From Panopea generosa (Eukaryota > Mollusca > Bivalvia > Adapedonta > Hiatellidae), in assembly GCA_029582155.1 (NCBI GenBank), contig CM055909.1, positions 19,670,798 through 19,734,797 of the forward strand: 64,000 bases of DNA, given 5' to 3'. Of the stretch, positions 22,741 to 47,039 are shown piece after piece. Position 1 is the stretch's first letter. Every line of letters begins with the position of its first letter. The notes beneath the pieces were generated by a model. The model searched no databases and was not told the origin of the DNA. It worked only from the letters and a program-made list of their open reading frames with translations. The position numbers were made by a program, and so were the translations under genes.

Positions 22741-22751
22741 GAGACAGCAGG

Positions 22752-23525: not shown

Positions 23526-24560
23526 ATGGTCACACATTATGTACCTAGTTATGAACAATTGAACATTTTAACCTGGAATATTGGTGGACTTAGAAAATAT
23601 GTGGACGATTTGTTATTTAAACAATATTTACAAACATATGATATTGTAGGACTTGTTGAAACGTGGAGTAGCTTTAAAGGCGAATATGATTTGTTTTTAC
23701 AGCAGTTCACTCATTTTGATTGTATAAGACAGAAACTTGGTAATGCAATTCGAAACAGTGGTGGGGTTAGTGTATTTGTAAAAAATACTTTAACTAAATC
23801 TGGTTTAATTAGGCAAATATTCCCAGAGTTTTCAAATTGCATTGTTTTATATATTAAATCTAGCGTTTTTCATTTCATGAAGGATATTTTATTATACCTT
23901 GCTTATGTCTCACCCGAAGGATCACCCACTTATAATGCAAATGAGAAAAATGGTATAGTTTTGTTAGAAAATAATATTTCAATGTTAAAAAATGTATATC
24001 CAGAATGCTATTTATATATTTCTGGGGACATGAACGCCCGAACTTTGAATTTGCTTGATTTCATTCCTGATGGTACTTTAGATCATATGTATACATTTTC
24101 GGTTGACTATGACACAGACACGTTCGACTTGCCGCGAAATAATAAGGATACAGATAGGTACAATCTATTCGGTAAATCACTTGTAGAGCTTTGTTGCACT
24201 CATAGTGTGCATATTATAAATGGCCGGCTACATGGGGATACATCTGGGAACTTTACGTGTATTGCAAATGATGGCCATAGTGTTGTCGACTACCATATCG
24301 CTTCTTCGGAATTATTCCCGATTATTTCAGATTTTAATATTGAAGAACGTGATAATTCCGATCATTTCCCAGTATATGCCCAACTTACGTTAAAGTGCAA
24401 TCAAACAGAACAGGTCGAATGCGACGGAGAAAATCGCTCGCAAGAATTCGAATTCTTCGAGCAATATAAATGGAGAGATAGTCTACGTGAAGATTTTATT
24501 CGGTCGTTTAGAATAAATTTGGAATTAAAGTATAATGAAATTACTGCTTTAATCGGTTAG
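23526..24560 (+). CDS. LINE ORF2 N-terminal part: AP-like endonuclease
   Basis: This 344-residue frame ends at a TAG that interrupts a longer frame. The endonuclease/exonuclease/phosphatase motifs appear in order: TWNIGG (Asn18), GLVETW (Glu45), SGDMNARTLN (Asp168, Asn170), VVDYHIAS and NSDHFPV (Asp279, His280). All expected catalytic residues are present. In such elements this domain nicks the target DNA to prime reverse transcription. The ATG at 23526 is the first Met ahead of the domain and sits ten residues before the first motif, so it is a credible start. Translation would stop before the reverse transcriptase unless the TAG is read through or is a sequencing error. Confidence 0.9.
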   Translation: MVTHYVPSYEQLNILTWNIGGLRKYVDDLLFKQYLQTYDIVGLVETWSSFKGEYDLFLQQFTHFDCIRQKLGNAIRNSGGVSVFVKNTLTKSGLIRQIFPEFSNCIVLYIKSSVFHFMKDILLYLAYVSPEGSPTYNANEKNGIVLLENNISMLKNVYPECYLYISGDMNARTLNLLDFIPDGTLDHMYTFSVDYDTDTFDLPRNNKDTDRYNLFGKSLVELCCTHSVHIINGRLHGDTSGNFTCIANDGHSVVDYHIASSELFPIISDFNIEERDNSDHFPVYAQLTLKCNQTEQVECDGENRSQEFEFFEQYKWRDSLREDFIRSFRINLELKYNEITALIG

Positions 24561-24617
24561 AATGTAAACGATGCGGTATTAATCATACTTGACCTCTATA
24601 AACAGTCGGCCAAAACT

Positions 24618-27002
24618 ATGCGTTCGTTACCGAAAGCATCGTCTGCTACAAATATACAACCTTTATGGTGGGATAGTGAGTGCAACGAAGCAAAACATTA
24701 TAAATATTCATTGTTAAGACGATTTTGCTGGACAAATAGTGCAACGGATTTTAACAACTATAAAGCTGCTCGTAATACATTTAAGTATATTTGTACGACA
24801 AAAAAGTTAAAGCTACAATTTGATCGGCGGCAAAGCCTCATTAATGCACGAAACGATCCGAAAAGTTTCTGGAAATTAATTAAATTACAAAACTTGAATA
24901 ATACGGCAATAACGGGAACTGGGCGGATACATGTAGAAGATTGGTTAACGTACTTTAAAAGTCTTTTATTTAAAGAAGGTCAGCCGCCTGCTTCAGATAT
25001 AAACTTGCATGATTTTCAAAATAATGATGATATGGATATTTTATTGAATGCACCGATTTCAAACGAGGAAATAAACCGAAGCATAGCTAAACTTAAAACA
25101 GGGAAATCCTTCGGAAATGATGGGATAGGAACACAGTTTTACAAACACACTTGCGATTTCATAGTGCCCATACTGCATATATTATTCAATAAAATATTAG
25201 ACTCTGGTGAATTTCCAGCCATATGGTGCGATAGCATTATAGTTCCTATTTTCAAATCGGGTTCGAGGGACGATCCATCAAATTACAGGGGGATATCTTT
25301 AATTAATATAATGTATAAGATCTTCTCAAGCATAATTAATGACAGAATTACTAAATGGTCGGAGCAGTTTGAAATTATCGATGAAGCCCAGGCGGGGTTT
25401 AGGGCGGGTTACTCGGTTATAGATAACATGTTCAATTTGCAAAGTATGGTCCAGAAATATATTTCGAAACCAGGTGGTAGGTTCAATGTACTATACGTAG
25501 ATTTTCAGAAAGCGTTTGATTCTCTAGTTCACTTTAAACTATTTTCAAGCCTTCTGAAGAAAGGCATCAACGGTAAGCTTGTGCATGTGTTAATATCTAT
25601 GTATTCGAACATCCAGTCATATGTTAGGGTTGGAGACAAGTTTACTAAGCCATTTAAATGCAATATTGGAGCGAGACAAGGTGATTTAAATTCGCCTATA
25701 ATTTTTAGTCTTTACATAAATGACCTTTGTACCCACCTCAGAGAGAAATGTCATAATGGAATATTTATTACTAATGATATACCAGATATTCTTTGCTTAC
25801 TTTTTGCGGACGACGTAGCTAACTGTGCGGACACAGCAAGGAACTTACAAATACAGCTCAACGCAATTTCTGAATTTTGTGATAACACGGGCATGCAGGT
25901 TAACATCAAGAAAACTGAAATAATAGTATTTAGAAATGGCGGTCCACTGCGAAATTATGAAAATTGGTCCTTTAATGGAAATAATGTAAACACGACATCT
26001 GTATATAAATATATGGGATTACTTTTTACACCTAAACTCTCATGGACATCTGCTAAGTGTAAATTGGCTGCACAGGCTAGGAAGACAATATTTTCTATTA
26101 AAGGATATCAGAGGACATTTGGAAGTTTTATGCATAAAGATATATTTAAATTATTTGATTCGATGGTAGTGCCAATACTCACATTTGGTTCGGAAATCTG
26201 GGGACATGAATACGCCGACAAGATAGAACAAATACAAGTGCAATTTTGTAAATATTTTCTAGGTATTAATTCTACTGTTAATAATTCTGTAGCTCTTGGA
26301 GAGTGCGGGAGACTTCCACTATGTGTAATATATTATACCAAGTGCATAAAATACTGGTGTAAATTGCTTCAAATGTCCAACAATCGCTTTCCTAAGAACT
26401 GTTACAAAATGTTGAAATCTCTAGACGATATTGGTAGAAAAACTTGGGCCACAAACGTTAAAACATTATTGTATAGGTATGGGTTTGGGTATGTGTGGCT
26501 AGCACAAGATGTTGGTGACATTAACCTATTTGTCTTAACATTTAAACGAAGGATCTCAGATTGTATGACGCAAACTTGGCATGATGATATAATCAACTCA
26601 CCCAGGTGTGATACATATAAACATATTAAATCCTTATTAAATCCTGAAAGATATTTAAACATTGACCTTTCCTTCAATCTCAAACGATCATTTGCACGTT
26701 TTAGATGCTCCTCTCACAGACTAAATATTGAAATTGGTCGACATTTTAACATTGAAAGAGAAAATAGAATATGTTTATTTTGTTTCTTAAATTCCAATAT
26801 AATGGTGATAGAAAACGAATACCATGTATTTTTTAATTGTTCTAAGTATACTCATGTTAGAGAAACACATCTGTATAATTGGTATATAGGGCATTCAGAA
26901 CATGCAGATTTTTATCGATTGCTTCAAAGCGAGAATCCAGAGACTATTAGAAAAATTGCTCTTTTTATAACAAAACTGTTTGAAATTATAGATAAAACAT
27001 AG
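24618..27002 (+). CDS. LINE ORF2 C-terminal part: reverse transcriptase
   Basis: These 794 residues are in the same frame as the endonuclease, and the frame is already open from 24561. The RT motifs are NYRGISLIN (about 222-230), QAGFRAGYS, VDFQKAFDSL (catalytic Asp295), GARQGDLNSP (351-360), LLFADDVA (Asp398 and Asp399) and VNIKKTEIIVF. FADD replaces the common YADD, which is usual among LINEs. RQGDLNSP departs from the more common RQGCxLSP. A CxxC...HxxxxC cluster near residues 705-740 (CLFC, then HVFFNC) matches the C-terminal Cys/His motif of many animal LINEs. I see no RNase H domain. The Met at 24618 is probably internal. Confidence 0.93.
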   Translation: MRSLPKASSATNIQPLWWDSECNEAKHYKYSLLRRFCWTNSATDFNNYKAARNTFKYICTTKKLKLQFDRRQSLINARNDPKSFWKLIKLQNLNNTAITGTGRIHVEDWLTYFKSLLFKEGQPPASDINLHDFQNNDDMDILLNAPISNEEINRSIAKLKTGKSFGNDGIGTQFYKHTCDFIVPILHILFNKILDSGEFPAIWCDSIIVPIFKSGSRDDPSNYRGISLINIMYKIFSSIINDRITKWSEQFEIIDEAQAGFRAGYSVIDNMFNLQSMVQKYISKPGGRFNVLYVDFQKAFDSLVHFKLFSSLLKKGINGKLVHVLISMYSNIQSYVRVGDKFTKPFKCNIGARQGDLNSPIIFSLYINDLCTHLREKCHNGIFITNDIPDILCLLFADDVANCADTARNLQIQLNAISEFCDNTGMQVNIKKTEIIVFRNGGPLRNYENWSFNGNNVNTTSVYKYMGLLFTPKLSWTSAKCKLAAQARKTIFSIKGYQRTFGSFMHKDIFKLFDSMVVPILTFGSEIWGHEYADKIEQIQVQFCKYFLGINSTVNNSVALGECGRLPLCVIYYTKCIKYWCKLLQMSNNRFPKNCYKMLKSLDDIGRKTWATNVKTLLYRYGFGYVWLAQDVGDINLFVLTFKRRISDCMTQTWHDDIINSPRCDTYKHIKSLLNPERYLNIDLSFNLKRSFARFRCSSHRLNIEIGRHFNIERENRICLFCFLNSNIMVIENEYHVFFNCSKYTHVRETHLYNWYIGHSEHADFYRLLQSENPETIRKIALFITKLFEIIDKT

Positions 27003-29539: not shown

Positions 29540-29768
29540 GATCAGTTAACCTAACCACTCTTTCCAGGGATCCTGGAACTTAACCAGTAATGAAACGTAT
29601 CTCCAAGTAACTGATAACTTTCCCACTTGAATCAGCAGTGAGATATGAATGACAATGAGATGCAATGTCATATATCAGTCATCACGTAAATTGTGGCCGA
29701 GCTGGGATTTGAACGTGTGACACCTGTATTGATAGTCAGATGCACTACTTACTGAGCAAACAGGGCCT
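29540..29768 (-). mobile_element. tRNA-derived SINE, family A (minus strand)
   Basis: On the minus strand the head reads TTTGCTCAGTAAGTAGTGC (A box) then ACGTTCAAATCCC (B box). The body matches the copy at 22752: CTGCTGATTCAAGTGGGAAA, TCAGTTACTT and GTGGTTAGGTTAACT. Confidence 0.88.
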
Positions 29769-30050: not shown

Positions 30051-30437
30051 ATCAGTATCTTATTCCCACTATGTTTGTGCCACAATAAGACCAATGGTAC
30101 ATTGCCAATTTGACATTTATCAGGCAGTTTAGAGAATTTTGGCCAAGTATTTAAAAGAATAAGGAGCTAAACACAGAAAACATAGCGTGCCTGTGACATG
30201 GTGGAGATATATTTATACTTGCAGTGTGCAACACAATAATAATATGGTAGTACACACAGCAACAACAATTTCTCAATTTGGACTGAGCTACCTGCTCAAT
30301 ATATATTGTTGGTTTGATTTGTGAAAAAATAAAAATTCATGTGAGTAACACTATAACTGTATTAAAATATAAATTTATTTTTAAAATTGGTAAAAAGCAT
30401 CTCATTATCATCAATTAATATAATCTGAATGGTTTGG
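30051..30437. other. No gene seen
   Basis: Unique AT-rich sequence left of the putative EnSpm element. The outer end of that element could lie in here, but I cannot place it. Confidence 0.4.
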
Positions 30438-30630
30438 TATGTCAAATCAACCAACATGTTACAAAATCAATATCTAAATTAGAGTGGTAAACTTAAAATG
30501 AAATCCCCATTATGAAAATAGGTAGCACTTAAATACTGCTTGACAGCCTTCACATGGCTATTGATCCTTTTTCTAAGTTGAAATATTTTTTATTATGCGT
30601 AAAACAGTCAAATGGATCAAATCAAAATCC
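30438..30630 (+). repeat. Left inverted repeat of the putative EnSpm element
   Basis: The strongest core is AGAGTGGTAAACTT followed by AAATGAAATCCCCATT, with one base between them. It matches the reverse complement of the right repeat over 31 positions with one difference. Weaker similarity continues inward through TTTCTAAGTTGAAA and GGATCAAATCAAAAT. Confidence 0.75.
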
Positions 30631-30639
30631 AAAGGAAAA

Positions 30640-31000
30640 TGCAGGTGCTAAAGTACACACAAGGTCAAATAGTACAATTTTATATGTTTCAAGAGCCGTA
30701 ATTCTGTCATTAATTCTACAATTTGGCCAGTTCAAGACCTTGTCCGAGATATTATGCTTATATAATTAATGTGTAAGTTTGCAGAGGACACAATGAAAAA
30801 TGCAGGTACTTCTAAAAATGCACACAAGGTCAAATAGTGCAATTTTTTAAGCTTCACTCTGATTTTAATAATCCAATTTGACCAGTTTAAGAACTTGTCT
30901 GAGATATTATGGTTAAATAACTACTGTTTAAGTTTGGGAAGGATAAAATTAAAAATGTGGGTACTAGAGTGCACACAAGATCAAAGAGTCAATAGGTCAT
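30640..31000. repeat. Diverged 150-165 bp tandem repeat
   Basis: The phrases GCAGGTGCTAAAGTACACAC, AAGGTCAAATAGT, TTTGRCCAGTT and TTGTCYGAGATATTATG recur with steps of 165 and 151 bp (anchors at 30660, 30825 and 30976). A further partial copy is at 32045-32160. It sits just inside the left inverted repeat. The frame 30554-30769 is a by-product. Confidence 0.75.
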
Positions 31001-32044
31001 CCGTTACTATTTTGAAATACGGTTAAGACAAAAGGATGCACTTTCCATTGACATCTATATATATATATATTTTTGCATATATGGTCGCTCATTTAAATGG
31101 TGACCAGATAGATTCAATACAGAGACTGGCTATATGAAACTGCAAAATATGTAGTTAGAATCATTTCACCACTGATACTTGAGGTGGGAAGACCGGTAAG
31201 AGAGGGTGGCGATATTTGAAGTGAAGGACTTGATGCATCCAGATGCATGTATTTATATCAACAAGAAATATGGATTTTGATAGCCTACAACTGGGATATG
31301 TACTATAAATACACATTGTTCAGTGTGACGACTCATCACCATGCTGTGTTATTGATGACGTCAACGGGTGTTCTATTTCACTGTCTCTACAATATGGATG
31401 ACTAAAATATAAGACGCAAAAAATGCTCAACAATGTTAACAGTGGCTTTCAATATGCTGACCTCGTATATTGATTGGACAAACACTGTTTCAAAGGACAC
31501 AAGAGAAGATTCGAAGCTATTGGAAAGAAATGTTGTGTTGTTCCATGTCTATATTGCCACTGGTTCTCAGGGTTACACGTTTTTAGTTTATTTATAAAAA
31601 AAGAGGTTAATCATGTTTAAGCTCACACACTTACAAGTATATCTAACTTTACAATTCTTAATTTTACATGCAATTTGTCTGAACTTCTTTGATTTTGTAG
31701 AGATTGATGCGATTACACACGACATGTTGAGTCATAATTTTATTTCATAACACTATCAAATATATTTTTCATCACAATATGTTTCTGCTTGAATTTTTGA
31801 TTAGACAAAAAAGTAAAAATAAAATCTAGCATATCTGAAGATGCTGACACTCCTATACTCTATAAATTAATACAAAGTAGTACTTAACTTGTATTTTGTA
31901 TTATTGATATTGCAAGTTTCGTCAAGATCAAATTATGTTTAGTTGCATCAAATTGATTATGATTATTATATATTTGTTAACCATTATGAATTTAATATGT
32001 AGTTTAATGAGATTAAAAGTTGAAGTGTCAAAAACAAAAAAAGC
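31001..32044. other. No gene seen
   Basis: AT-rich sequence with a short TA run near 31055-31070. No supported feature. Confidence 0.4.
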
Positions 32045-32160
32045 TCAAATAGTTCAATTTTAGTTCAAGAACTTGTCTAAGATATTTTGGTTATATAACT
32101 ATTATGTAAGTTTGGTAAAGAGCCAAAGAAAAGTGCAGGTGCTAGAGTAAACACAACAAA
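32045..32160 (+). repeat. Isolated copy of the 150-165 bp repeat
   Basis: It carries AGTTCAAGAACTTGTCTAAG, GTAAGTTTGGTAAAG and GTGCAGGTGCTAGAGTAAAC, in the same order as the cluster at 30640-31000. Confidence 0.65.
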
Positions 32161-32700
32161 AAGTTCACAATGGAAGACGGACACAGGGTAATTAGGTGAG
32201 ATTAAGTCACAGATGGACAGATTTGCTAGGTAAAGTTTTTCATCAAAACTGATTTACAAAGGTTAGTAACTGATTGACACAAGATATGACCTTGGCACTG
32301 TTGCAAGGCAATCAACTCATTCCTTTTCTTCTCAACCTGAAAATAAGTGGAACATTTTTTGCACATTTGGCTAAATTGAAATTATTACGGAACAATATGA
32401 TAAAATCTATATGAAATGTTAAATAACTGTTATGGAAGCAGATTTACACAAGCTTCTAAAGATTTTTTCTGTATCGTTTCCACATACTTTGTTAAACGTA
32501 TGACTTTATGCTTTATTGTTAAATGTATGCTTAATATATGTAGTTATGTTTAAACTAAGTGAAACATTCAGCATATAATAATAAAGAAGCAAAGAAATGA
32601 ATATATGGAATGTAAATTAAACGCCTATCTTCTTCTTGAAGGGTTTTGGGAGGCAAAGTGCTCTAAAATGCTGTATCAAAATCACAAACATCCCATACAG
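32161..32700. other. No gene seen
   Basis: AT-rich sequence. The open frames around 32605-32814 on both strands overlap the paired-motif cluster and have no domain. Confidence 0.4.
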
Positions 32701-33105
32701 ATGAAACCCTTTGCAATATATTTGCGAAATAAGTTTAGAATGTATTCCTTTAAGCTTATCATTTGCACTATATTTGCAGATGCTTTTCCAGAATAAGCCG
32801 CAAATACATTGCAAACATCAATATATCTTGCAAAGGGTTTGCAAATGATAACTTAGATAATGAAATTAGCCGCAAATACTTCGCAAACACCAACTTAGTT
32901 TATTTAGATAATTGCAAAGGCAATGCAAAGGGTAACTTATGATTTTAGTGCTTGCAAATATTTTGCAAACACTAACTCAATTCTTATTACACTATATTGA
33001 AAACATAAATTGATGGACTTTGAAATAAATTAAGCCGCAAAGAGTTCGCAAACAATTACTTTAATACATAAATGCTGCAAATATATTGCAAATAGTAATT
33101 TTGCT
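32700..33105. promoter_or_regulatory. Cluster of nine paired GCAAA motifs, 11 bp apart
   Basis: Nine pairs of GCAAA-like pentamers occur, each pair exactly 11 bp apart, one helical turn. The G positions are 32713/32724, 32765/32776, 32800/32811, 32830/32841, 32872/32883, 32914/32925, 32954/32965, 33037/33048 and 33077/33088. From 32872 on, the pairs recur about every 41 bp, and a degenerate pair lies in the one gap near 32990. The pairs are better conserved than the DNA between them. Arrays of short motifs bound by element-encoded protein are known from En/Spm, so a binding region is my inference. The cluster lies just beyond the transposase 3' end. Confidence 0.6.
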
Positions 33106-33432
33106 TATTTTCATCTTTATCATTATATACTGAATGTTGACGGAAACTAAAAATGTGTTATTTTTGCATATCATAAATGGACTACTGTAATATGCACCCC
33201 AAACAAAAGAAAATACTAGTATTAGTTTACAGATACTTTTAAAAGTCTGGATATAAATGTATGAAAATCATTACATTTTTTAGGGTGGATGGTTAGACTA
33301 CACTCAAATTAAAATTAGATCTAAAAACTTTATCTGGATCTGCACTATCAATCAATGGTTTATTAAATAAAGTATCATTCTTTCTCAATATCATCAGTTG
33401 GTGTAAAGGCATAGCATTCATCCAAACCTAGT
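33106..33432. other. 3' flank of the transposase remnant
   Basis: AT-rich sequence with no supported feature. Confidence 0.4.
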
Positions 33433-33870
33433 TCAACATAATATACTAATTTGGCAATAACATCGGCTGGATTCACAGCTTTGCAGGTATAAAACTGATT
33501 TAGCAGGCTTTACAGCATAGACAAAATCCATCATGGCAACTGGTCCTACTAGTGACGCAGAATTTGGCTGTAATTCAGGTGCACTCTCACATATCCAAAC
33601 CATTACACCAAAGTCTTTTGGTGAATCTTTACATTTCTTTGATACACGACAGCAATCATGGCCACAGAAAGTTTGATATGCAAAAGCGTACTGAATAAAT
33701 GCAACTGCATTTCCCTCATTCTCACTCAGTAGCACTGTGTAACTATTTCTTTTAGTTACTCTTCTGTAGGCAACAGTGTGGTAAAGAACATTCTTCACTT
33801 TAAATCAGAAGAACTGTTCGACTTCATTAAATTTGAACCTTTATATGAGTAAATAGCATCTTTCTCTTCT

Positions 33871-34899
33871 TTAGTTATTTTTAGTATATGAGGTCAACCA
33901 AAAAAAAATTTCCTCTGAAATTTGATGTCTTGTTCTCGGTCCATTGCCTCTAGTATGGGTCATCTTATGATAAATATGCAATCCCTGTTTGTTGTGCAAC
34001 AAATTTTCATTATAAGACATTTTCTGAAGTAATGAGCTGGCATTTGCAATCTGCATTTCAAAATTTTGCGACCCGTGAAACAGTTTCCTGCGATCTCCAT
34101 TTAGGTCTTTATAGAAAAAGCATGAAAATGTCCATAGTGGCACGTGGTTCTTAACGCAAGATGGTAAATGTAAAAGTTGATGAATGTTAAATGTGCACTT
34201 GCTTTCTAAATACAGAGATGGCACTCTCAGACAGAAATGTTGCAGTAATAATGTAGAATTTTTCAGATCATCACTTGTAATAGCTGATTTCAGAAGCAGG
34301 TAAATGCCATTAACTAAAAGCATTGCATGATTTAAATACACATTTGGCAAAATATATTTCATAACTGGAAACAGGCAATATAACAGCCAAATTCTATATT
34401 CAGAGGCTTTGTATTTATTTCCGTATACTTCTAGGCTTCTTCGAATCCGCTTGACAAAATCTGGAGGAGCTATTGACTTTCTTTTATTGTCACATTGTTT
34501 AACCATCTTTAAATAACTCCACGGGTATTTTGAGAAAGGTTTACCAAACCACAATGTAATGAGCAACTGCACCACACCAAGGAGCACAGCATGCATGTAG
34601 TCAACTGCAGTACCCAAAATATTGAACTTTGGTAGAATTAACCCCCAACTCATTGCAATAACACCGTTTACATTGTGTTTAGCTCTCTTTTGAATTTCTA
34701 GATGTTGCGTTGCACACACTGCATTTTTCCTGGTTTCACAATGTGTTCGAACAGCATCATGTCCAAGTTTATTGACATTTGCTTCAATGAAGGGATAAAT
34801 CCTTGCATGGCCTTTACCAGACGCAACAGCTTTCCTTTCTCTGTGCAATAACCACATCCACTTTCTCCATTGAACTGTGTAAAACCTTGAAACATGCAT
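33871..34899 (-). CDS. Transposase fragment, core and C-terminal part (Transposase_21)
   Basis: This is the longest intact piece of the remnant, at 342 residues. The first 25 or so residues are probably off-frame relative to the family. From AVASGKGHARIYPF on, the sequence fits. It includes LPKFNILGTAVDYMHAVLLG, whose Asp-x-Met-His corresponds to the conserved DxMH of tnp2 proteins, then KASEYRIWLLYCLFPV, FNIHQLLHL and PLWTFSCFFYKDLNGD, all typical of animal members. It ends at a stop at 33871, and the family similarity resumes in another frame at 33798-33433. The role in an intact element would be cutting and joining DNA at the transposon ends. Confidence 0.85.
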   Translation of the reverse strand: MHVSRFYTVQWRKWMWLLHRERKAVASGKGHARIYPFIEANVNKLGHDAVRTHCETRKNAVCATQHLEIQKRAKHNVNGVIAMSWGLILPKFNILGTAVDYMHAVLLGVVQLLITLWFGKPFSKYPWSYLKMVKQCDNKRKSIAPPDFVKRIRRSLEVYGNKYKASEYRIWLLYCLFPVMKYILPNVYLNHAMLLVNGIYLLLKSAITSDDLKNSTLLLQHFCLRVPSLYLESKCTFNIHQLLHLPSCVKNHVPLWTFSCFFYKDLNGDRRKLFHGSQNFEMQIANASSLLQKMSYNENLLHNKQGLHIYHKMTHTRGNGPRTRHQISEEIFFWLTSYTKNN

Positions 34900-35033
34900 C
34901 TTGCTGGAGCGTCAAGGCATACACTTAGCAGAATTGCTCTTACAATGACATCTTGTTCATCCACTCTTACTGATATACCATTGTTGAAAGTATCAAACAA
35001 CTCTTCCGAAAATGGACGCAAAAAGGTAGTCAT
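34698..35033 (-). CDS. Transposase fragment, middle part (Transposase_21)
   Basis: This frame starts MTTFLRPFSEELFDTFNNG and contains CLDAPARCMFQGFTQFNG followed by GCGYC. In the tnp2 family this is the stretch with the second catalytic Asp (here in CLDAPA) and a Cys pair. Upstream, the same frame continues through a TGA near 35066 into the NTDG motif. Downstream the family sequence moves to the next frame (33871-34899), so the last 60 or so residues of this frame are off-frame. It is a piece of the larger remnant, not a separate gene. Confidence 0.8.
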   Translation of the reverse strand: MTTFLRPFSEELFDTFNNGISVRVDEQDVIVRAILLSVCLDAPARCMFQGFTQFNGESGCGYCTEKGKLLRLVKAMQGFIPSLKQMSINLDMMLFEHIVKPGKMQCVQRNI

Positions 35034-35878
35034 CTTCGGTTTTGTTGAACTGAACCACAGCCCTCACGTCCTCACGTCCCTCGAAAAACGAACTTTTGGA
35101 GGTAGTTCATTGATAGTGAGGTATATTGGCCAGACACTAACATTTGACGACTTGAGTATGGCTACACCATCTGTATTCATTTGAAATGAAATGTTATTTG
35201 GGTTAAAAAGAAACTCTCCTTCCCTAAATAACTCATAATATAGAGCTCCGTCATAAATGTCTTCTATCCCTGATGGATTTCTGTTGAACCTGTGATTTAA
35301 AATTGCTTGAAATTCTTCTTTCTGGAAAAGTGTTTGTATTTGTTACTGGCAAGGTATTTGCAGAAAGTATGGAATATTTTTCCCACATCCACTACACACT
35401 TCAGTTTCAATTGGTGGATTGTCAGCACAAATATATTGTGTACAGAAATTACAGTAATAATGGACAATTTTTTTCTGCATCATGATTTCCAAAATATTTC
35501 CCAATTTGTTTAACTGAAGATTTACATTTGTTTGACTGAGTGCAAATGAAACTGATTATTTCTAACAAATCACTGAATGCAGTGTAGGTCAACGAGTGCC
35601 TGATGGCATGTCATTAAGAGTATCATAGTCTCAGAAACAGTCATTGCAGCATTTGAATATAACAGATCATCATCATCATCAGTTTCATCTATTGAACTAT
35701 TGCGTTCAAAATCTTCATCATTATCTGAACAACTACTGGTTTCGTCAAAATTTGACTCGCTTATATCATCATCACTTAAGTCACTTATTTCAGTTTGTTC
35801 CAGATCTGGAATTAAAACTAGTTCTAGTTGACAGTCTGGGTTTAAGAGCCATTTAAATATATCTGCATCCCTTGACAA

Positions 35879-37061
35879 ATCTCATTTTCTGACTCACTAG
35901 AAGTTAAACGATTTGTGTTGCAGCAATTTGTGATAATCTGTTAAAAAATGCAGTAAAATACCAAAATCAGGGAATTTTTTATTCAACAATTAATATTGTA
36001 CAAAAACTGTTTGAAAATGACCGATTGTTCCAGTAACTCATTTTCAAAAAAAGAGCTTTACTCAAGTTTTTTTGTTAATTTTATTTTTTGTTAATATTAA
36101 AAGATTTTATTTGAAAAGTTAGAAATGAAAATGGTAACTAAAAGTACAGTTGTACATGTATCAGACCATATGAGGATCAGCTGTCACTCAATCATTTCTG
36201 ATGAAATACAGAGAAATTTAGCTGATATGAAATACTATAATAAAGAGCATGGTTACCTTTTGTTTTTGCTCTCAGAGTCCTTAAAGTTCACATACAGCAA
36301 TTGTCTGAGGCAGCAAATGAATCCCACCATGAACGTTTTCAAACATGTACCTGCAGAGATATATAAACAAATCCAAAGCTGTATTTTACCATTCAAATGG
36401 CTTTATTAATATGTACTCAAAGAATAATTTTAAAAAGTGTACAAATATTGCTTGCAATAATCAAATGTATGTAATACGCAACACGAGTGACATGTATGGT
36501 TACTTGCAAATATCTTCCAAAACGCAAATCAAAACTAAGCAACTTGCCACAAGGGTGATGTCAATCGCGAAAACTAATGACATAAATATATTCAGCCATC
36601 TACATGTTAGTTGATATAGTTATATGCCTTACTTAACTCAATAACAAAATCAATAAGCTTATTTTCACCTCCCCACACAATAATTGATCTGAGTTACGTA
36701 ATTAATCTAGATAAAACTGCGGTAATGCACCAGATCCAATACGTTTCAACTTGTTTACAGATTCTCGTTGATTTTTGTGCATTTGATTCGGTAACAATAA
36801 CATGCATGTTATAAATCGGTAAAAGATAAAAACTAGTTACCTGAAATTTAAGAGAGAAGTACCAGCGCCGTATGTTTTTAAGCTGTCAAAAGTAGACGTT
36901 AGAGACATTTATAATGAAATATCTTTTGTTTATTTTCCTCGTTTTCCAATCTTGCGAGATTAGGATTAAATTTAATAACCTGTCACAATTACCAGTCACG
37001 TTAAAATTTTAATTGATGATTTTTTTTATTATCTTAAACATGTATTTATCACAAAACAGTT
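35879..37061. other. Spacer between the divergent transposase and spliced gene
   Basis: This is about 1.2 kb of AT-rich DNA between the 5' ends of the two genes, so it could hold both promoters. The frames at 36125-36409 and 36345-36614 are not recognisable and overlap each other. No TATA box or other element is convincing. Confidence 0.4.
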
Positions 37062-37085
37062 TCAAGGAAAGACCTTCTACAAAAG

Positions 37086-40000
37086 ATGAATGAGCTACAA
37101 GCACTTAAGTTGAAGACGAGAGAAGTTGCATTAGCTAAAGGTAGAAACTTATATTGTATTGGACTATTGGTTAACCATTTTGATTTGTTCTGATTGTGTA
37201 ACTAAGTATGTTTCGACTGACTGGGACAGCGGAGACCTTTTTAAAAATAATGACAGTTGTTTCATTTCAGAGGTTTTGGGCTCTTAGTTATATAAACATA
37301 GAAATTCAATGAGATTTTTTTTACTTGCACAGGGTATCCCCTTACATCTGGGCTATAACTGTCCACTCAGAAAAATAGCCACAGGGCAGGGATGATAATT
37401 AGTGCAATCCATTAAATTATAAGCCTGAGGTCATGGGTTTAGTTTCAGGTTTCTGATAAGAATGCTTCTTCAAACAACACTCAACTTGTGAGTACTAGTT
37501 TAATCACTTTTCATATAAGCTCTGAGCTTACATTGTAAATTAATCAATAAGTATAACCAAGGTACATGTAACCTCTTGGTACAAATGTTTTTAATCTTTT
37601 TAGGTACTAGCAAAGAACTTGCAAATGATTTAGATTGTGATCAGAGTTCACCTTCTAAAGATAATACAGAACCTAAGAAAGGTATTATATTTATATGTAT
37701 TGCTATAGCATATGACGCCTTTTTTTATTGAAAGCTGTTGGACCAACATTGAAATAATAATTGTTTGTTACTCCTGATCCTAGGATGAATCTATCCCACA
37801 TTTATTCAAGGTATATAAGAAACAAAATTCTATAATGGTTCAATGAAGGAGCTAACAGTAACATTACAAAAGTAAATATAGTTGGTTAATAAACAAGATG
37901 ATATTTGAAATAATATATGAATGAAATCTGTTAATTAATATGTTGATAGTAAATGGAATTTAAAAGCCACAGAATTGTGCTGGTTGCAGGCTTTACTATA
38001 TATTTTGTTTCCTTTAGACACAACAAAAAGACGCAGTACAAAAAGTTTTCAGGACACAATCAAAAACAAAAATACCAACAAGACAACAGTAACATCCCTG
38101 AGTACAATAACAAGTAGGTTTTACTCTATATATATATCTACAGCTAAGATACATAATTTTGAGATTGTATTTCCATCAGAATCTCTTAATGAGCTCTGTC
38201 TATACAGTAACAGCATTTAGAGGATAGTTGTAGGCCTGGTCGTCCTGGTGTCAGTATAATGTGACTGGGTGGGTTAACATACCATGTGTCTGCTGCATGA
38301 TACTCCAGTGTGACAGCGCTCAGAATACTGTCTCAAGTAGACATCGTCACGATATGACTGAACACCATACAACAACTGTCTATACAGAATATAGCTTGAC
38401 TTTCGAAGACGAGGGAAGCTAATGTACCCAACTTGGTGTCGTTTTTAATCTGTCTCAATGCTACATTAGCAGCAGCATGATAGCCTGAATTCATGATAAA
38501 TAGCATCGGGCCTTCATACATTTAAGGTACAGTTACATGGACTATTGGGACCATGAAAAAATGTTTATAATATGGAATACAAAAAATGTATGTTTTATGA
38601 ATCTATTGTTTCAATTCATTTTGACAATATAGAAATGTTTTTATCTAAAATAGTGTGGGGTGATTAAATAATGAATGTTGCGTTAATTTAGTCTTTGTTC
38701 TTTATATCAGATGAAGACGTTGATAAGAACATAAGTGCTTATTTTGGACTCAAGGCAATGTCATTGGACCAGGAAAACAAACTCAAGCTGCCACAAAATC
38801 CATCTGACATGCACACACTTCAAAGTACATCAAAACACACCCCGTCAAACAAGCATACCCCACAAAGTACCCCAAATCACAAACCATCGAGCACGCATAC
38901 CCATGAAAGAACTTCGAAACATACACTTCAAGATACACCAAAGCACCTACCATCATCAAACAAGCAAACACCACAAAGTTCTTCAAAATGCACACCATCT
39001 CACACACATACACTTCCAGGTACACCAAACAACACATTGTCATCAAACAAGCATACACCACAAAATTCATCAAAACACACACCACCAAACAATCATATAC
39101 ATGAAAATATTACAAAACGCACCCCATTAAACATGTACACAAAGAAACATGTCACACCTCGGTCTTCAGGGGTAAAAAGGCCATTGTCAAAAAAATATAT
39201 TGACAGCGACACTTCTGACAGTGATGTAGACAATACAGATGAACCAATTTCATCATCAACACCAATTGCACAAACAATACTATGTGCCACCTTTCTTACA
39301 CCACACTCAAAAAAGTATCTCCACCTCAATCTGCAAAATACATAGACTTTACAGATAGCGATGAAGATCACACACCAGTATCTCCACACATTAGTGACAT
39401 AGCAGACTCTTCAGACAGTGACAACAGCATGCATGAACATACTTTGACACCATAACTTCCTTCACAGCATTTTACATCACATTTACACAACCCACTCACT
39501 AACCAAACAGCTGGCAAATGTCCCCGGGCTGTGCCCATAGCGCCGTTATGTACCCAGGTGGCATGTGTTAATTTACGAAAGAGAAAACCAGGTGTTAAAG
39601 GAACAGATAGGGTTATTGAGATCAAATAACACAAGACTTCAGCGAGAAATCAAAGGTGGGACATTATAACCATCTAAATGTATCTATTTATGATTTTGAA
39701 ATATTTTAAATAGCTGAACTAGTTAGTAAGTGGGTAACGTGTCTGGCTGTTAAGCCAGGGTCTCGAGTTTTAATCCCTGTCTAACCAATTTCTTTGAAGT
39801 GATGATTATTCCTGAAACCCATAAAATAAACATTCATTTTAAATATACATTTTAAAACCAGGAGAATTGATTCAGATCACTTGGTATTAACTTTTATATA
39901 AACAAATAGTAAATTATTTAAATTCTTGCAAACAGGTATATATTTTTCCATTCTTAGAAACATAATTGCTGTTCTTTGTATGTCCCACTTCGTTTAAAGA

Positions 40001-40429
40001 AAGAACCCAGTATATGCCTGTCAATTTGTTAGTTGGAGATTTTAAAAAATGGTTTCCAATCCAGAACTCCTGAAGGGGTCTGTAATTAATATTATTTAAT
40101 AATAGTTTGTGTGTACCTTTATAATTATAAAAAACATTGATCAGAAACCATTATTTTTTACCAGTAATAAGTTGAAAAGGCTAGAGTTCCTGTGAAACTT
40201 GACACTGACATATATTAAACTGGATCTGCATTAATGTTGCCAGGCATATATCTAGTTTTAACATTTTTCTATTTTATTCAATGTGTTATATTTTTGTATC
40301 AGAATACCAAAATACTTAATATGATTTCTTCTTGTAGATCTAAGATCAGCATCTGAAGTGGCAACACCAAGTACTAGTACTCCCCAACCAGGAATATACT
40401 ATGACCGGCAGATACCCAGAGAAAACAAG
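37086..40429 (+). CDS. Spliced gene of unknown function beside the transposase
   Basis: Predicted exons are 37086 (ATG; exon may begin near 37062)-37140, 37604-37681, 38018-38113, 38711-39314 or longer, 39558-39655 and 40338-40429. All have GT/AG borders, and the first three introns and the last join in consistent phase 1. The start reads MNELQALKLKTREVALAKG. Exon 4 is rich in Ser, Thr, His, Lys and Pro (KHTP-type repeats), then acidic (DSDTSDSDVDNTD). Exon 5 reads YERENQVLKEQIGLLRSNN, a likely coiled coil. Exon 6 ends IPRENK and no later exon is certain. I recognise no enzyme domain. A CACTA second-ORF, DNA-binding or regulatory protein is a guess from context. The 3' end is missing or undetected, and exon 4 has a frame problem (see 38711-39450). 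Confidence 0.55.
38205..38420 (+). mobile_element. SINE family D fragment in an intron
   Basis: It contains CATTTAGAGGATAGTTGT, GGTGTCAGTATAATGTGACT, GGGTGGG, GATACTCCAGTGTGACAGCG and ATACTGTCTCAAGTAGACA. The same series occurs, reversed, at 46620-46865 with a tRNA-like head. This copy has no head. It lies in the predicted intron 38114-38710. Confidence 0.8.
38711..39450 (+). CDS. Large disordered exon of the spliced gene, with a frame break
   Basis: After the acceptor TTTATATCAG the frame reads EDVDKNISAYFGLKAMSLDQ, then about 120 residues of low-complexity repeats such as SKHTPSNKHTP and PSSNKQTPQSS, then KRPLSKKYIDSDTSDSD. This frame ends in a stop at 39343-39345. However, one base off, from the A6 run at 39309-39314, a very similar acidic sequence continues (KYIDFTDSDEDHTPVS, ADSSDSDNSMHEH) to a TAA at 39449-39451. 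So the exon either carries a one-base deletion in the A run, or the second part is an intron (GTATCT donor at 39315, CCCAG acceptor at 39557). The bias against hydrophobic residues suggests a disordered nuclear protein. Confidence 0.5.
39716..39795 (+). repeat. tRNA-like sequence, SINE head relic
   Basis: TAGTTAGTAAGTGGGTAACG (A-box-like) is followed by a CTGGC/CCAG anticodon-like stem and GAGTTTTAATCCC (B-box-like). The B box is off consensus. It lies in the predicted intron 39656-40337. Confidence 0.5.
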
Positions 40430-40679
40430 GTAATTTTAAGTAAAAGGGATATGACTGCATTTTCTCTGAATAGAAGATAAAGATAGCAGTATGCAAAAAC
40501 TAGATATACTCAGAGACCCAGGTTACAAAATTTAAAATTGGCTAAAACATTTTTTGACTGCCAAAATAATATATTAAAAAGGCCTGCTAACTTGCGCTAG
40601 GTTCCACTAGAATAGATTTCCTGCTTAAAATAGCAACATATTTTGTGACATATTAAATGAGTCGCCCGACTTTCATTTT

Positions 40680-40855
40680 GATTTCAATTTGATCCTTATA
40701 TATTATGTTTACACTTAGTAAAAAACGTTTCATCTTAGAAAGAGTCGGAATGACAATGCGAAGGTTATCAAACGTTTTAAGTACTGTCTAGAATGGGGAT
40801 TTCATTTCAAGTTTACCACTCTGATTTGTCACGTTTTGGTGGATTTGACACACTA
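40680..40855 (-). repeat. Right inverted repeat of the putative EnSpm element
   Basis: This is the reverse complement of the left repeat at 30438-30630. The best block is GGATTTCATTTCAAGTTTAC followed by CACTCT (about 40798-40823). Weaker similarity continues through ATCTTAGAAAGAG and ATTTGATCC toward 40680. Confidence 0.75.
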
Positions 40856-41234
40856 TACTTTTGACAAAAATGTTGTCAACGTTGAAGTAAAGTTTCGTAT
40901 TTGTGAATTAATATCAATCAAGATTAAACATATTTATTCACAAATTGTATGCAATTACATTTAAAAATATCACATTAGTTAAAGAGATTGTTTGTATCCA
41001 ACTTCATATAAATTTTATGATTTCTCAGATCCAAATAAATTGGGTATAGGTTTAAGAATGCATCCCCACAAGGATGTTTATTGGAGTATACATTATCAAT
41101 GGAGACCTCTATACAGGCAATGTATATAGAGAAGACGTTGCTACCAACACTTGCAAAATTAAAAAAAAACTGAAACAGTACACTGGGATACTTTTATGGA
41201 AAAAAAATTGAAAAAAAAAATGATCATAAACAAG
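40856..41234. other. No gene seen
   Basis: AT-rich flank with A-runs near 41160 and 41200. No supported feature. Confidence 0.4.
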
Positions 41235-41305
41235 CTCGAACTCGCGACATTTGGGTTGACAATTCAAACCGTTAGCACTACGCTATCGAAACAGACAGTA
41301 GTACA
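41235..41305 (-). repeat. tRNA-like sequence on the minus strand
   Basis: The minus strand reads GATAGCGTAGTGCTAACGG (A box) and GCGAGTTCGAGCTTG (B box). It resembles a SINE head. No body was identified. Confidence 0.55.
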
Positions 41306-41448
41306 ACACACTTTATATTGATATATAGTTTATTTTATAGTTTATGTAATAGATAAAAAATGCTATCATACAACAAATACCACTAATACGGAAGATTCCA
41401 TCTAAAAATAGAATGACGTATTTTCAAAATAGCTGATTCGGTTTATAA

Positions 41449-41662
41449 GAACAATAATAATAATAATTAAAGATTACAGTACTAATAATAATAATAATCA
41501 TAATAATAAATAAATAATAATAATCACGAAAATAATAATGATAATAATAATATTAATATTAATGATTACAATAATAATAATCAGAATAAGTACAAAGACT
41601 ATCATAACAAAAACAATAAAAATAATAATAATATTAATGATTACAATTATAATAATATATAT
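41449..41662. repeat. AAT-rich microsatellite
   Basis: This is interrupted AATAATAAT sequence. Open frames of Ile, Met and Asn on both strands here (such as 41498-41710 and 41538-41888) follow from it and are not genes. Confidence 0.9.
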
Positions 41663-43823
41663 GGCACCAGGTGCTTTGGGTGAAGGGTGGAGGCACCATT
41701 CACAACACATTACAGGTTATATATGTTACCAGGTGCTTTGGGTGAAGGGTGGAGGCACCATTCACAACACATTACAGGTTATATATGTTACCAGGTGCTG
41801 TGGGTGGAAAGTGGAGGCACTATTGACAACACATTACAGGTTATATATGGCCCAAGGTGCTGTGGGTGAAAGGTGGATGCACCATTGACAACACATTACA
41901 GGTTATATATGGCCCAAGGTGCTGTGGGTGGAAAGTGCAGGCACCATTGACAACACATTACAGGTTATAATGGTCCGAGGTGCTGTGGGTGGATGATGGA
42001 GGCACCATTGACAACACATTACAGGTTATATATGTCACCTGGTGCTTTGGGTGGAAAGTTGAGGCACCATTCACAACACATTACAGGTTATATATGTCAC
42101 CAGGTGCTGTTTGTGGAAAGTGGAGGCACCATTCACAACACATTACAGGTTATATATGTCACCATGTGCTGTGGGTGGAAAGTGGAGGCACCATTGACAA
42201 CACATTACAGGTAATATGTGGCCCCAGGTGCTGTGGGTTGAGGATGGAAGCACCATTGACAACACATTACAGGTTATATATGGCACCAGGTGCTGTGGGT
42301 GGAGGATGGAGGCACCATTGACAACACATTACAGGTTATATATGGCACCAGGTGCTGTCGGTGGAGGGTGGAGGCACCATTGACAACACATTACAGGTTA
42401 TATTTGTCACCAGGTGATGTGGGTGGAGGATGGAGGCACCGTTCACAACACATTAAAGGTTATATATGGCACCAGGTGCTGTGGGTGGAGGGAGGAGGCA
42501 CCATTGACAACACATTACAGGTTATATATGGTCCCAGGTGCTGTCGGTGGAGGGTGGAGGCACCATTGACAACACATTACAGGTTATATTTGTCACCAGG
42601 TGATGTGGGTGGAAAGTGGTGGCACCATTGACAACACATTACAGGTTATATATGGCCCAAGGTGCTGTGGGTGGAAGGTGGATCCACCATTGACAACACA
42701 TTACATGTTATATATGGCCCAAGGTGCTGCGGGTGGAGGATGGAGGCACCATTGACAACACATTACAGGTTATATATGGCACCAGGTGCTGTGGGTGAAG
42801 GATGGAGGCACCATTGACAACACATTACAGGTTATATATGGTCCCAGGTGCTGTGGGTGGAGGGTGGAGGCACCATTGACAACACATTACAGGTTATATA
42901 TGTCACCAGGTGATGTGGGTGGAAAGTGGTGGCACCATTGACAACACTTTACAGGTTATATATGGCCCAAGGTGCTGTGGGTTTAAGGTGGATCCACCAT
43001 TGACAACACATTACATGTTATATATGGCCCAAGGTGCTGTGGGTGGAGGATGGAGGCACCATTGTCAACACATTACAGGTTATATATGGCACCAGGTGCT
43101 GCGGGTGGAGGATGGAGGCAATATTGACAACACATTACAGGTTATATATGTCACCAGGTACTGTGAGTGGAAAGTGGAGGCACCATTGACAACACATTAC
43201 AGGTTATATATGGCCCCAGGTCTTGTGGGTGGAGGATGGAGGCACCATTGACAACACATTACAGGTTATATATGACACCAGGTGCTGTGGGTGAAGGATG
43301 GAGGCACCGTTCACAACACATTAAAGGTTATATATGGCACCAGGTGCTGTAGGTGGAGGGTGGAGGCACCATTGACAACTTATTACAGGTTATATATGGT
43401 CCCAGGTGCTGTCGGCGGAGGTCGGAGGCACCATTGACAACACATTAAAGGTTATATATGGCACCAGGTACTGTGAGTGGAGGGTGGAGGCACCATTGAC
43501 AACACATTACAGTTGATATATGGTCCCAGGTGCTGTCGGTGGAGGGTGGAGGCACCAATGACAACACATTACAGGTTATATATGGTCCCAGGTGCTGTCG
43601 TTGGAGGGTGGAGGCACCATTGACAACATATTAAAAGTTATATGTGGCACCAGGTGCTGTCGGTGGAGGGTGGAGGCACCGTTCACAATACATTACAGCT
43701 TATATACGGCACTAAGTGCTGTGGTTGGAGGGTGGAAGCACCATTGACAACACATTACAGGCTATATATAGCACCATGTGCTGTGGGTGGAGGGTTGAGG
43801 CACCATTCACAATATATAACCTG
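41663..43823. repeat. 62-bp minisatellite array
   Basis: About 35 copies of a 62-bp unit contain GGAGGCACCATTGACAACAC, ATTACAGGTTATATATGGC and CCAGGTGCTGTGGGTGG. As 62 is not divisible by 3, each frame cycles over three units (186 bp), giving open frames with three alternating peptides. Multi-unit blocks recur at 186 bp (about 42355 and 42541) and 310 bp (42601 and 42911). Confidence 0.96.
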
Positions 43824-43825
43824 CT

Positions 43826-44335
43826 GGCGAAAATACCAGAAATGAATAATTGTCGTTAAACTATTTGGAATTGCGAAAAAGCAATCTACTCAACCCGTGT
43901 TTTGTTGCATTTTGGACCAGCATATGATTATTATTATTTTTATTATTATTATTTTTATTATTATTATTATTATTATTGTTCTTACCTTTGTTGTTGTTGT
44001 AATCATTCATATTATTATTATTAATTTCGTAATTATTATATCCGCATGTGCTTAGTATTGGTTCTACTCATAAAATCTTTTCGCGAGTCTAAGTTATAAT
44101 AACCTGTTTCGCAATAAAAGTAAAATAAGTAAGTTTAAATAAACATCAAGACCAGCGGGCGAAAATACCAGAAATGAATAATTGTCATTAAACTATTTGG
44201 AATTGCCAAACGCAATCTAGTCAACCCGTGTTTTGTTGCATTTTGGACCAGCATATTATTATTATTATTTTTATTATTATTATTATTATTATTATCATTA
44301 TTATTATTATTATAATTGTTCTTACCTTTATTATA

Positions 44336-44374
<39 letters not shown>

Positions 44375-44490
44375 GCTGTTGTTGTTGTTGTAATCATTAA
44401 TATTATTATTATTATTTTCGTTATTTTTTTTTTTATTTTTTTTTGTTATTATTATTATTATTGTTATTGTTATAAATATAAATATTATTC
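43826..44490. repeat. 332-bp tandem duplication with TTA/TTG microsatellites
   Basis: GAAAATACCAGAAATGAATA, AACTATTTGGAATTG and CAACCCGTGTTTTGTTGC occur from 43829 and again from 44161. Both are followed by CATAT(G)ATTATTATT runs and TTGTTCTTACCTTT. The second copy has a greatly expanded TTG run at about 44340-44390. Confidence 0.88.
44090..44145 (+). repeat. SINE 3'-end-like sequence
   Basis: ATAACCTGTTTCGCAATAAA then GTAAAATAAGTAAG resembles the 3' ends of the SINEs at 47040, 47650 and 48570. No head or body was seen. Confidence 0.45.
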
Positions 44491-44570
44491 TTGTGATCAT
44501 TAATATTATTATTATTATTACTATTTTTTATTTTTTTGTTTTTATTTTTATTATTATTATGATTATTTTT
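44258..44570. repeat. Compound TTA/TTG/TTATT microsatellite
   Basis: Runs of TTATTA, TTGTTG and TTTTTATT follow one another. Long poly-Ile/Val and poly-Asn frames here are not genes. Confidence 0.92.
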
Positions 44571-45075
44571 AACGAACGATAACTCGGCGAACGAGATTGC
44601 ATTAATGTGTAGAAAATCGCAATTGATAGGTGAAAAAGGGTGAGCTTGTCTGGACACATTTTGAGGAATTAGTCAGTGAAAGATTTTATTTTCATTTTTA
44701 TTTTTAAAAATTTGATGTTTTATATACAAAAAAATCTATATATTATTTTTTATGAAAATAAAACGTTCGGGGCTGCAAACATTAGGGATGGGCGGGGATG
44801 ATAATCTAGCAATTTATTTATTATGGCCTATAAACAACCCGGCCCAGCTATCTTGGTTAGCTGTTTTTATCAGGGTTGAGGTGAGGTATTGTACAATACA
44901 AACGTATTTACCACAACTTAGTAAATTGTATAAATAGATACAGAGATTTTCATAAAACGTCCAATTAAAACTATTTGATACCGGTATGTGTAAATGGTTA
45001 TACTTTAAACCTGAATATTGAGAAATACACTCCATTTCAAGAAGACAGATACATATAAACATGACTTAATCACTT
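44571..45075. other. No gene seen
   Basis: AT-rich sequence. The overlapping frames at 44752-44937 and 44814-45062 on opposite strands have no domain. Confidence 0.4.
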
Positions 45076-46430
45076 AAACCTGCGACCTCAGCATTGACAG
45101 GTACATAATGAAGATATAAGCGACCATGTGACCACGGATGACACTAAACCTTAACTGCGACCTCAACGGTGACAGGTATGTAATCAAAATATATGCGACC
45201 GGCCACGGAGGACACTTAACCTAACCTGCGACCTCAGCGGTGACAGGTACGTAATCAAGGTATCAGCGACCGGCTACGGAGGACACTTAACCTAACCTGC
45301 GACTTCAGCGGTGACAGGTGCATAATCAAGAAATTTGCGACCGGCCACGGAGGACACTTTACCTTACCTGCGACCTCAGCGGTGACATGTACGTAATCAA
45401 GATATCAGCGACCGGCCACGGAGGACACTTAACCTAACCTGCGACCTCAGCGGTGACAGGTGCGTAATCAAGATATTTGCGACCAGCCACGAAGGACACT
45501 AAACATAACCTGCGACCTCAGCGGTGACAGGTGCGTAATCAAGATATTTGCGACCGGCCACGGAGGACACTAAACATAACCTGCGACTTCAGCGGTGACA
45601 GGTACATAATCAAGATATTTGCGACCGGCCACGGAGGACACTAAACATAACCTGCGACCTCAGCGGTGACAGGTACGTAATCAATATATAAGCGACCGGC
45701 CAGAGAGGACACTAAACCTAACATGCGACGTCAGTGGTGACGGTACGTAATCAAGATATCAGCGACCGGCTCAACCTAACCTGCGACCTCAGCAGTGAAA
45801 GGTACGTAATCAAGATATCAGCGACCGGCCACGGAGGACACTAAACCTAACCTGCAACCTCAACAGTGACAGGTACATAATCAAGATATAAGCGACCGGC
45901 CACGTATGACACTAAACCTAATCTGCGACCTCAGCAGTGACAGGTACGTAATCAAGATATCAGCGACAATTTGGCCACGGAGGACACTAAATCTAACTTG
46001 CGACCTCAACAATGACAGGTACGTAATCAAGATATCAGCGGCCGGCCATGGAGAACACTAAACATAACCTGCAATCTCAGCAGTGACAGGTACGTAATCA
46101 AGATATAAGCGACCGGCCACGTAGGACACTTAACCTAACCTGCGACCTCAGCGGTGACAGGTACGTTATCGAAATACCAGCGACCGGCTACGGGAGACAC
46201 TAAACCTTACATGCGAGCTTAGCAGTGACAGGTACGTAATTAAGATATCAGCGACCGGCCACGGAGGACACTAAACCTAACCTGCGACATCAGCAGTGAC
46301 AGGTACGTAATCAAGATATCAGCGACCGGCCACGGAGGACACTAAACCTAACCTGCGACATCAGTAGTGACAAGTACGTAATCAACATATCAGCGACCGA
46401 CCACGGAGGACACTAAACCTAAATCGTAGT
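45076..46430. repeat. 71-bp minisatellite array, GC-richer
   Basis: About 19 copies of a unit contain CGACCTCAGCGGTGACAGGT, ACGTAATCAAGATATCAGCG and ACCGGCCACGGAGGACAC. Anchors at 45229 and 45300 give a 71-bp step. The unit has several CpGs, unlike its AT-rich surroundings. Copies near the left edge and near 45770 are diverged or shortened. Confidence 0.95.
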
Positions 46431-46615
46431 CTACTTGACGTCAATGGTGAAATGATAATTATACATGTTGACAGAGAGAAATTCTGCAAAGCTAATATTA
46501 TTGTACTGCTTTTTGTCTTGATATTTTACTAATATTCAAATAAAGAGGAAAACGTTTATGTTACTTTTGTTGTAGATGTTTAGCGACACTTTAAAAAGGT
46601 CATTATTATCACGAT
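46431..46615. other. No gene seen
   Basis: Short AT-rich spacer. Confidence 0.4.
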
Positions 46616-46619
46616 TGTG

Positions 46620-46865
46620 CCTGCTTGAGACAGAATTTTAGGCGCTGCCACACCGGAGTATCGTGATTCAGACCCCACCCAGTCACCTTATACTGACACC
46701 GGGCCCACAAAACATAGAACTATCCTCTAAATGTTGAGCGCCAAGCGAGGAAGCTTCTAGTTCCAGTGTTAAAGTCTTTGATATGATCCAGTCGGGGATC
46801 GAACCGACGACCTTCCGTATGCGAGGCGAACACTACCCAATGATCACCGCTGCGGTTCATGAACA
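46620..46865 (-). mobile_element. tRNA-derived SINE, family D (minus strand)
   Basis: On the minus strand the head reads GGTGATCATTGGGTAGTG (A box), then GGTCGTCGGTTCGATCCCCG (B box). The body has ATTTAGAGGATAGTTC, GGTGTCAGTATAAGGTGACT, GATACTCCGGTGTGGCAGCG and CTGTCTCAAGCAGG. It matches the fragment at 38205-38420. Confidence 0.9.
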
Positions 46866-47039
46866 GTTAGACAAAGCGATATATGTATATATTGTTTAAG
46901 AAACATAATACTAGTATGTAAGTGTTTATTAATTTAAATCACAGTAGAATAAATATTTTTTGAAAATAATCCGGCACTAGTCCAGTTAAAATGTAAATAA
47001 TATTACGAGAATTCTTTAAACTTATTTATTTTACATCGA
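46866..47039. other. No gene seen
   Basis: AT-rich spacer between SINEs. Confidence 0.35.

Follow-up and report, generated by a model that had tools for sequence, protein, structure and literature searches.

The locus raises the question of whether a decayed transposase, a spliced-looking open frame on the opposite strand and a pair of inverted repeats are parts of a single mobile element. The initial annotation of the window (the whole 64,000-nucleotide stretch of Panopea generosa DNA analysed here) had described a 10.4-kb EnSpm/CACTA-like element, in which a minus-strand tnp2 transposase and a multi-exon plus-strand gene lie head to head between long inverted repeats. We recovered each of these parts (Table 1): a broken tnp2 of the animal type, repeats that face each other around it and an open, splice-consistent partner frame pointing away from the transposase. 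What did not carry over with the same firmness is the status of the repeats as termini, since they show neither a convincing target-site duplication nor correctly oriented CACTA or CCC ends. Our best explanation, to which we assign about even odds (a probability near 0.5), is a decayed animal transposon of the CACTA-related (EnSpm/TRC) kind, most likely a unit of about 10.4 kb with inverted repeats of ~190 bp, tnp2 and a divergent TNPA-like partner.

Table 1. Features of the candidate element, in window coordinates
Feature	Positions	Strand	Remarks
Left inverted repeat, candidate left terminus	30432..30638	+	Aligned to the reverse complement of 40671-40858
Two partly overlapping repeat-unit copies, inner edge of left inverted repeat	30630..30993	+	74% and 77% identity
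Probable tnp2 C-terminal piece, 123 aa	33433..33804	-	Frame of the 346-aa piece, stops between; putative assignment
tnp2 continued in a different frame, 346 aa	33871..34911	-	Box A from 34605; no Pfam match alone
tnp2, cysteine-rich (CXXC) stretch and Transposase_21 core	34698..35459	-	PF02992, stops read as X
Probable tnp2 N-terminal piece, acidic, 103 aa	35570..35881	-	Third frame; putative assignment
Partner exon 1	37086..37140	+	Starts with ATG; GT donor, phase 1
Partner exon 2	37604..37681	+	AG/GT, phase 1
Partner exon 3	38018..38113	+	AG/GT, phase 1
Partner exon 4	38711..39345	+	Ser/Thr/His/Pro-rich repeats; stop codon 39343-39345
Candidate later exon, coiled-coil-like	39583..39655	+	Start undefined; past the exon 4 stop and further stops
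Candidate last exon	40338..40429	+	Open frame joined to 39583-39655
Right inverted repeat, candidate right terminus	40671..40858	-	Aligned to the left inverted repeat

A broken transposase of the animal type

Translated with X in place of its in-frame stops, the minus-strand frame matched the Pfam family Transposase_21 at 39.9 bits (cut-off 28.6) in a single stretch covering positions 22-163 of the 213 in the profile, or approximately 34809-35216 of the window. Scored as separate open pieces, the same region reached 26.2 and 13.9 bits, both under the cut-off. A second family, DUF1258, overlaps the stretch just below its own threshold (32.3 versus 33.1 bits). The downstream 346-aa piece has no related solved structure by sequence at E values up to 1, and it carries the decapeptide VDYMHAVLLG, which is the sole match to the box A pattern L/V/I-D-X-L/M-H-X3-L-G when all six frames of the window (127,996 residues) are searched. 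In the available text of DeMarco and colleagues (PMC1636069), box A is present in eumetazoan transposases and in three of four fungal ones and is absent from those of flowering plants. The strict published pattern of Motif I (D-G ... W-P-I/L/V) is unmatched in tnp2; relaxed here so that M and L are also allowed, it matches ISFQMNTDGVAILKSSNVSVWPI. The CXXC motif is also present, and two Asp residues are spaced 86 residues apart, versus 80 in PMC1636069.

Further probable pieces of the gene lie on both sides of this core. Searches of Pfam gave no family above cut-off for the probable C-terminal piece and no match for the probable N-terminal piece. A Sec23_BS hit on the C-terminal piece (19.1 bits at E 0.0021, or E 0.022 when the stops were read through) fell below its cut-off of 33.5 and was rejected. 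For all four tnp2 pieces examined by codon score, the proper frame came out best, with a margin of at least about 0.2 over the five wrong ones. Because the Transposase_21 match occurs together with the motifs of the animal TRC (Transposon Related to CACTA) proteins, the sequence supports an EnSpm/CACTA-like transposase, as initially annotated, and its placement among the published animal members of the superfamily.

The initial annotation did not mention that the gene is disrupted. One stop codon (35064-35066) lies inside the Transposase_21 match and another (35343-35345) upstream of it, within the sub-threshold DUF1258 match. In addition, the box A continuation is in a different frame, and the probable terminal pieces use a third frame or are separated by stops. 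Introns could be the source of some of these frame changes; an intron hardly accounts for the stop at 35064-35066, because the domain match continues across it. The intact transposase frame of an autonomous, active transposon is absent. Judged from the copy as read, tnp2 is a pseudogene from which a full transposase could not be made, and the stops and frame changes indicate that this member of a known animal superfamily is dead. We also observed a smaller inverted repeat (32563-32614 / 33082-33138) with arms of ~34 nt at 85% identity, enclosing approximately 500 bases in which GCAAATA/TTTGCAAA motifs are frequent; the interval 32563-33138 is perhaps a small nested element. Elsewhere in the window, a possible Mutator-like transposase remnant lies on the plus strand at 62047-62211 (PF20700, 25.8 bits with a cut-off of 26.5).

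Inverted repeats around the two genes

The inverted repeats aligned at 79% identity over 186 bases, gaps left out, with a K2P distance of 0.25 and a local alignment score of 149. In blastn the pair gave 73.9% identity over 165 columns with gaps (91.5 bits). The alignment contains a core of 31 nt with one mismatch, as initially annotated. Arms matched without gaps measured 36 nt (94% identity), 34 nt (79%) and 25 nt (84%). Both tnp2 and the partner frame lie between the repeats, and no third copy of the core was detected in the window by blastn at E values up to 0.01. At its inner edge, the left repeat runs into repeat-unit copies (Table 1), which have a further relative at 32048-32156.

As a chance control, we scored 579 random segment pairs drawn from the window outside its satellites. 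Their mean score was 34, and 574 of them scored 64 or less; the remaining five scored 102, 124, 172, 172 and 172, so that three of the 579 exceeded the score of the candidate termini. The high control scores could stem from further inverted pairs of dispersed repeats that the window contains. Comparison of the window with itself, after the tandem arrays had been masked by hand to leave 32,170 unmasked bases, revealed an inverted pair at 22751-22982 / 29544-29767 (232 aligned columns, 77.6%) that outscores the candidate termini with 174 bits versus 91.5 and has a further relative at 63673-63815. Another inverted pair, 38211-38343 / 46618-46736, scored slightly lower than the termini, at 86.9 bits. 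The inverted repeats are real, yet they are no proof of transposon ends, because the window holds these other inverted pairs of dispersed repeats.

The terminal sequences weigh against transposon ends. The aligned ends start with GTTTGGTATG and GTATAGTGTG, neither of which begins with CCC or with a correctly oriented CACTA. Near the right end, the plus strand does read CACTA at 40851-40855, but the motif points outward, the reverse of a CACTA...TAGTG arrangement, and has no counterpart at the left end. Among 31 registers we found one 2-bp match (AA) and one 3-bp match (TGA), approximately the level expected by chance and no convincing target-site duplication. In plant En/Spm elements, TNPA binds repeated subterminal motifs. 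A search limited to exact matches in this decayed copy found no motif of at least 9 bases present two or more times in each of the subterminal kilobases, and the only 8-mers present at least twice at both ends were three AT-rich ones. The lack of a shared subterminal motif speaks against an array of TNPA-like binding sites, at least for a copy as decayed as this one. We treat the inverted repeats as putative termini.

These observations bear on an alternative in which tnp2 is left over from a smaller TRC/EnSpm element whose short termini are lost or unseen, the inverted repeats are an unrelated dispersed pair and the plus-strand frame belongs to neither. Such an element would suit the published sizes: in the available text of PMC1636069, the three TRCs with described terminal inverted repeats (TIRs) have TIRs of 10-54 bp and lengths of approximately 4.5-9.2 kb. 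The higher-scoring inverted pair, its dispersed relative and the nearly equal second pair fit this alternative as well, as do ends that carry neither CCC nor a correctly oriented CACTA nor a convincing duplication. The uniqueness of the repeat core in the window and the enclosure of both genes between the arms argue against it, and we regard a smaller element as possible but doubtful.

Other repeats and genes were seen in the window. A satellite with a 54-bp unit (353.7 copies over 19.4 kb, 82% matches), followed by diverged copies of longer period, occupies 17-19872. The 232-bp dispersed repeats at 22751-22982 / 29544-29767 flank an unrelated LINE-type element (23523-27002), in which an endonuclease frame (23523-24560; PF03372, 32.2 bits) is followed directly after its stop by a reverse-transcriptase frame (24561-27002; PF00078, 104.6 bits). 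A tRNA-Gln on the minus strand (21201-21270) was recognized by both Rfam (54 bits) and ARAGORN, and a tRNA-Tyr (20871-20940) was called by ARAGORN only. On the far side of the locus, an extremely AT-rich region (51720-57086; GC ~0.14 in 52001-56000) consists of diverged tandem units of 76 bp and longer. Dense related direct and inverted repeats fill 58372-60292 and 62741-63029, with self-complementary stretches at 58378-58521 and 62751-62873.

The divergent partner frame

The partner begins approximately 1.2 kb from the tnp2 pieces (35881 to 37086) and is transcribed, if at all, in the opposite direction. Exons 1-4, which we picked by eye with the initial annotation as a guide, are joined by three GT-AG introns, all in phase 1 and with pyrimidine-rich acceptors, into a frame of 287 residues from the ATG. 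This frame terminates at the end of exon 4, at a stop that the initial annotation had not mentioned, and its apparent continuation lies in other frames or past stops. Downstream, the best heptad register of the coiled-coil-like stretch places hydrophobic residues at five of eight a/d positions; the candidate last exon, when left unspliced at 40429, stays open until a stop at 40478-40480. Thus, the partner looks damaged too, or its model is incomplete. One intron contains a dispersed repeat (38211-38358) with an inverted relative at 46599-46736.

Tandem units of ~42, 45 and 87 bp extend over most of 38821-39084 in exon 4, which suggests that the plus-strand frame could be a CACACC-rich minisatellite, poor in stops and open in appearance only, to which splice sites were fitted by eye. 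This explanation concerns the partner alone and overlaps with that of a smaller element. The codon scores, trained on the LINE frames of the window, are equivocal and lend it some weight: 38713-39282 scored 0.001, versus -0.044 for the best wrong frame, and 38714-39340 tied with an antisense frame at -0.036. Against it, none of 500 first-order Markov sequences modelled on either of two local stretches reached the 217 codons open in exon 4, although this null drops the tandem repeats, and three phase-1 GT-AG introns with pyrimidine-rich acceptors follow one another. We find a spurious frame unlikely, and the partner may be a real gene.

Alternatively, the same exons could be those of an ordinary host gene, with the tnp2 element inserted within it or next to it. 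The multi-exon structure and the phase-1 introns agree with such a gene, as does the good donor at 40429 of the last candidate exon, after which we recognized no further exon before the right repeat. Conversely, no Pfam domain was detected at E values up to 5 in the three plus frames of 36500-41400, stops read as X, and the stop that closes exon 4, with later open stretches in other frames or past stops, is unlike a conserved host gene. Both strands of 46400-51300, beyond the largely tandem arrays of 41400-46400, gave no Pfam match above cut-off either. The host-gene explanation is, in our judgment, quite improbable. A BEN domain might have been anticipated downstream of the coiled coil; the plus frames of 36500-41400 contain no match to it, and the titles and abstract openings searched yielded no transposon of this kind with a BEN domain.

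A possible two-gene element and its known relatives

Several observations would favor a single unit, namely the inverted repeats that flank both genes and the absence of a third core copy from the window. Both genes look decayed, which also fits one dead element whose arms have diverged to the K2P distance given above. The points against it are the weak duplication, ends without CCC or CACTA, the long arms, the higher-scoring rival pair, the missing subterminal motif, a partner without Pfam domains and its equivocal codon score. A divergent pair within one element is possible, and the partner is plausible as a gene of the element with a TNPA-like role; inverted pairs of dispersed repeats turn up often enough in the window that the link between the two genes is an inferred one.

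Should the ~10.4-kb unit be genuine, it would have been a cut-and-paste DNA transposon bounded by its ~190-bp inverted repeats, at which the tnp2 protein encoded on the minus strand would have cut. The divergent partner would supply a small DNA-binding or bridging protein similar to the plant accessory protein TNPA. Plant TNPA brings the transposon ends together, and the partner, which is acidic and in part coiled-coil-like, could have helped to join the ends in the same manner. The 1.2 kb between the two genes would then serve as a two-way promoter. Beyond this copy, we only tentatively propose a CACTA-related animal lineage with ~190-bp inverted repeats that lack CACTA or CCC, and with tnp2 and a divergent, spliced, repeat-rich coiled-coil accessory gene sharing a central promoter. 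As it stands, the locus holds a single dead member of a superfamily already in print and is mostly ordinary. If the partner travels with tnp2, it would represent an animal CACTA accessory gene arranged unlike those of plant En/Spm and SmTRC1, and the repeated origin of a two-protein strategy would become testable.

The suggestion in the initial annotation of an undescribed animal lineage is not supported, because animal CACTA-related elements with this domain are already in print (PMC1636069; PMC4298943, in their available text). The titles and abstract openings searched, which cover few subscription papers, contained no divergent two-gene animal CACTA element, and the available text of PMC13155389 merely cites the SmTRC1 paper. 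Pattern searches for relatives in viral and prokaryote contigs returned matches (15 + 5 viral, 5 prokaryote), none of which was confirmed by tblastn with single-protein queries, which find close relatives only.

The closest comparison is with SmTRC1 of Schistosoma mansoni and the other animal EnSpm elements. As far as the available text of PMC1636069 describes them, these share with the present locus the Transposase_21 domain, box A, a motif-I-like block (matched here only in relaxed form), the CXXC motif and two spaced Asp residues, as well as tandem repeats inside the element and inverted repeats around it. The ends differ. The TRC TIRs measure 10, 27 and 54 bp (PMC1636069) and that of the Hydra EnSpm element ‘Spongebob’ (EnSpm-4N1_HM in Repbase) 17 bp (PMC4298943, in the portion describing this element), versus arms of ~190-207 bp here, and the TRC lengths fall short of the 10.4 kb between the ends of the present repeats. 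‘Spongebob’ starts with CCC and makes a 2-bp duplication (PMC4298943), and DeMarco and colleagues reported CCC ends in S. mansoni, Tribolium and Aedes elements, which they offered as a suggestion from three species (PMC1636069); the present ends have no CCC start and no clear duplication. The 2-bp target-site duplication itself accompanied only 7 of 14 SmTRC1 copies in that text (PMC1636069). The source of additional proteins differs too: SmTRC1 and maize Spm (TnpA-D) produce theirs by alternative splicing of element transcripts (PMC1636069, as available), in contrast to the candidate second gene on the opposite strand here.

Plant En/Spm, with TNPA and TNPD, resembles the locus in combining a tnp2-type transposase with a second, spliced protein that is not a transposase (PMC1636069, in the text available). 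Its termini carry CACTA, and its subterminal regions carry repeated motifs, whereas the present ends have no correctly oriented CACTA and no repeated subterminal motif. Two opposed genes in one DNA transposon are familiar from PIF/Harbinger, which uses another transposase family. The RAG1L/RAG2L elements, described as carrying two convergent genes in the accessible part of PMC7204232, likewise provide a precedent for a gene pair on opposite strands of one cut-and-paste element, with a transposase of a different family from the tnp2 found here.
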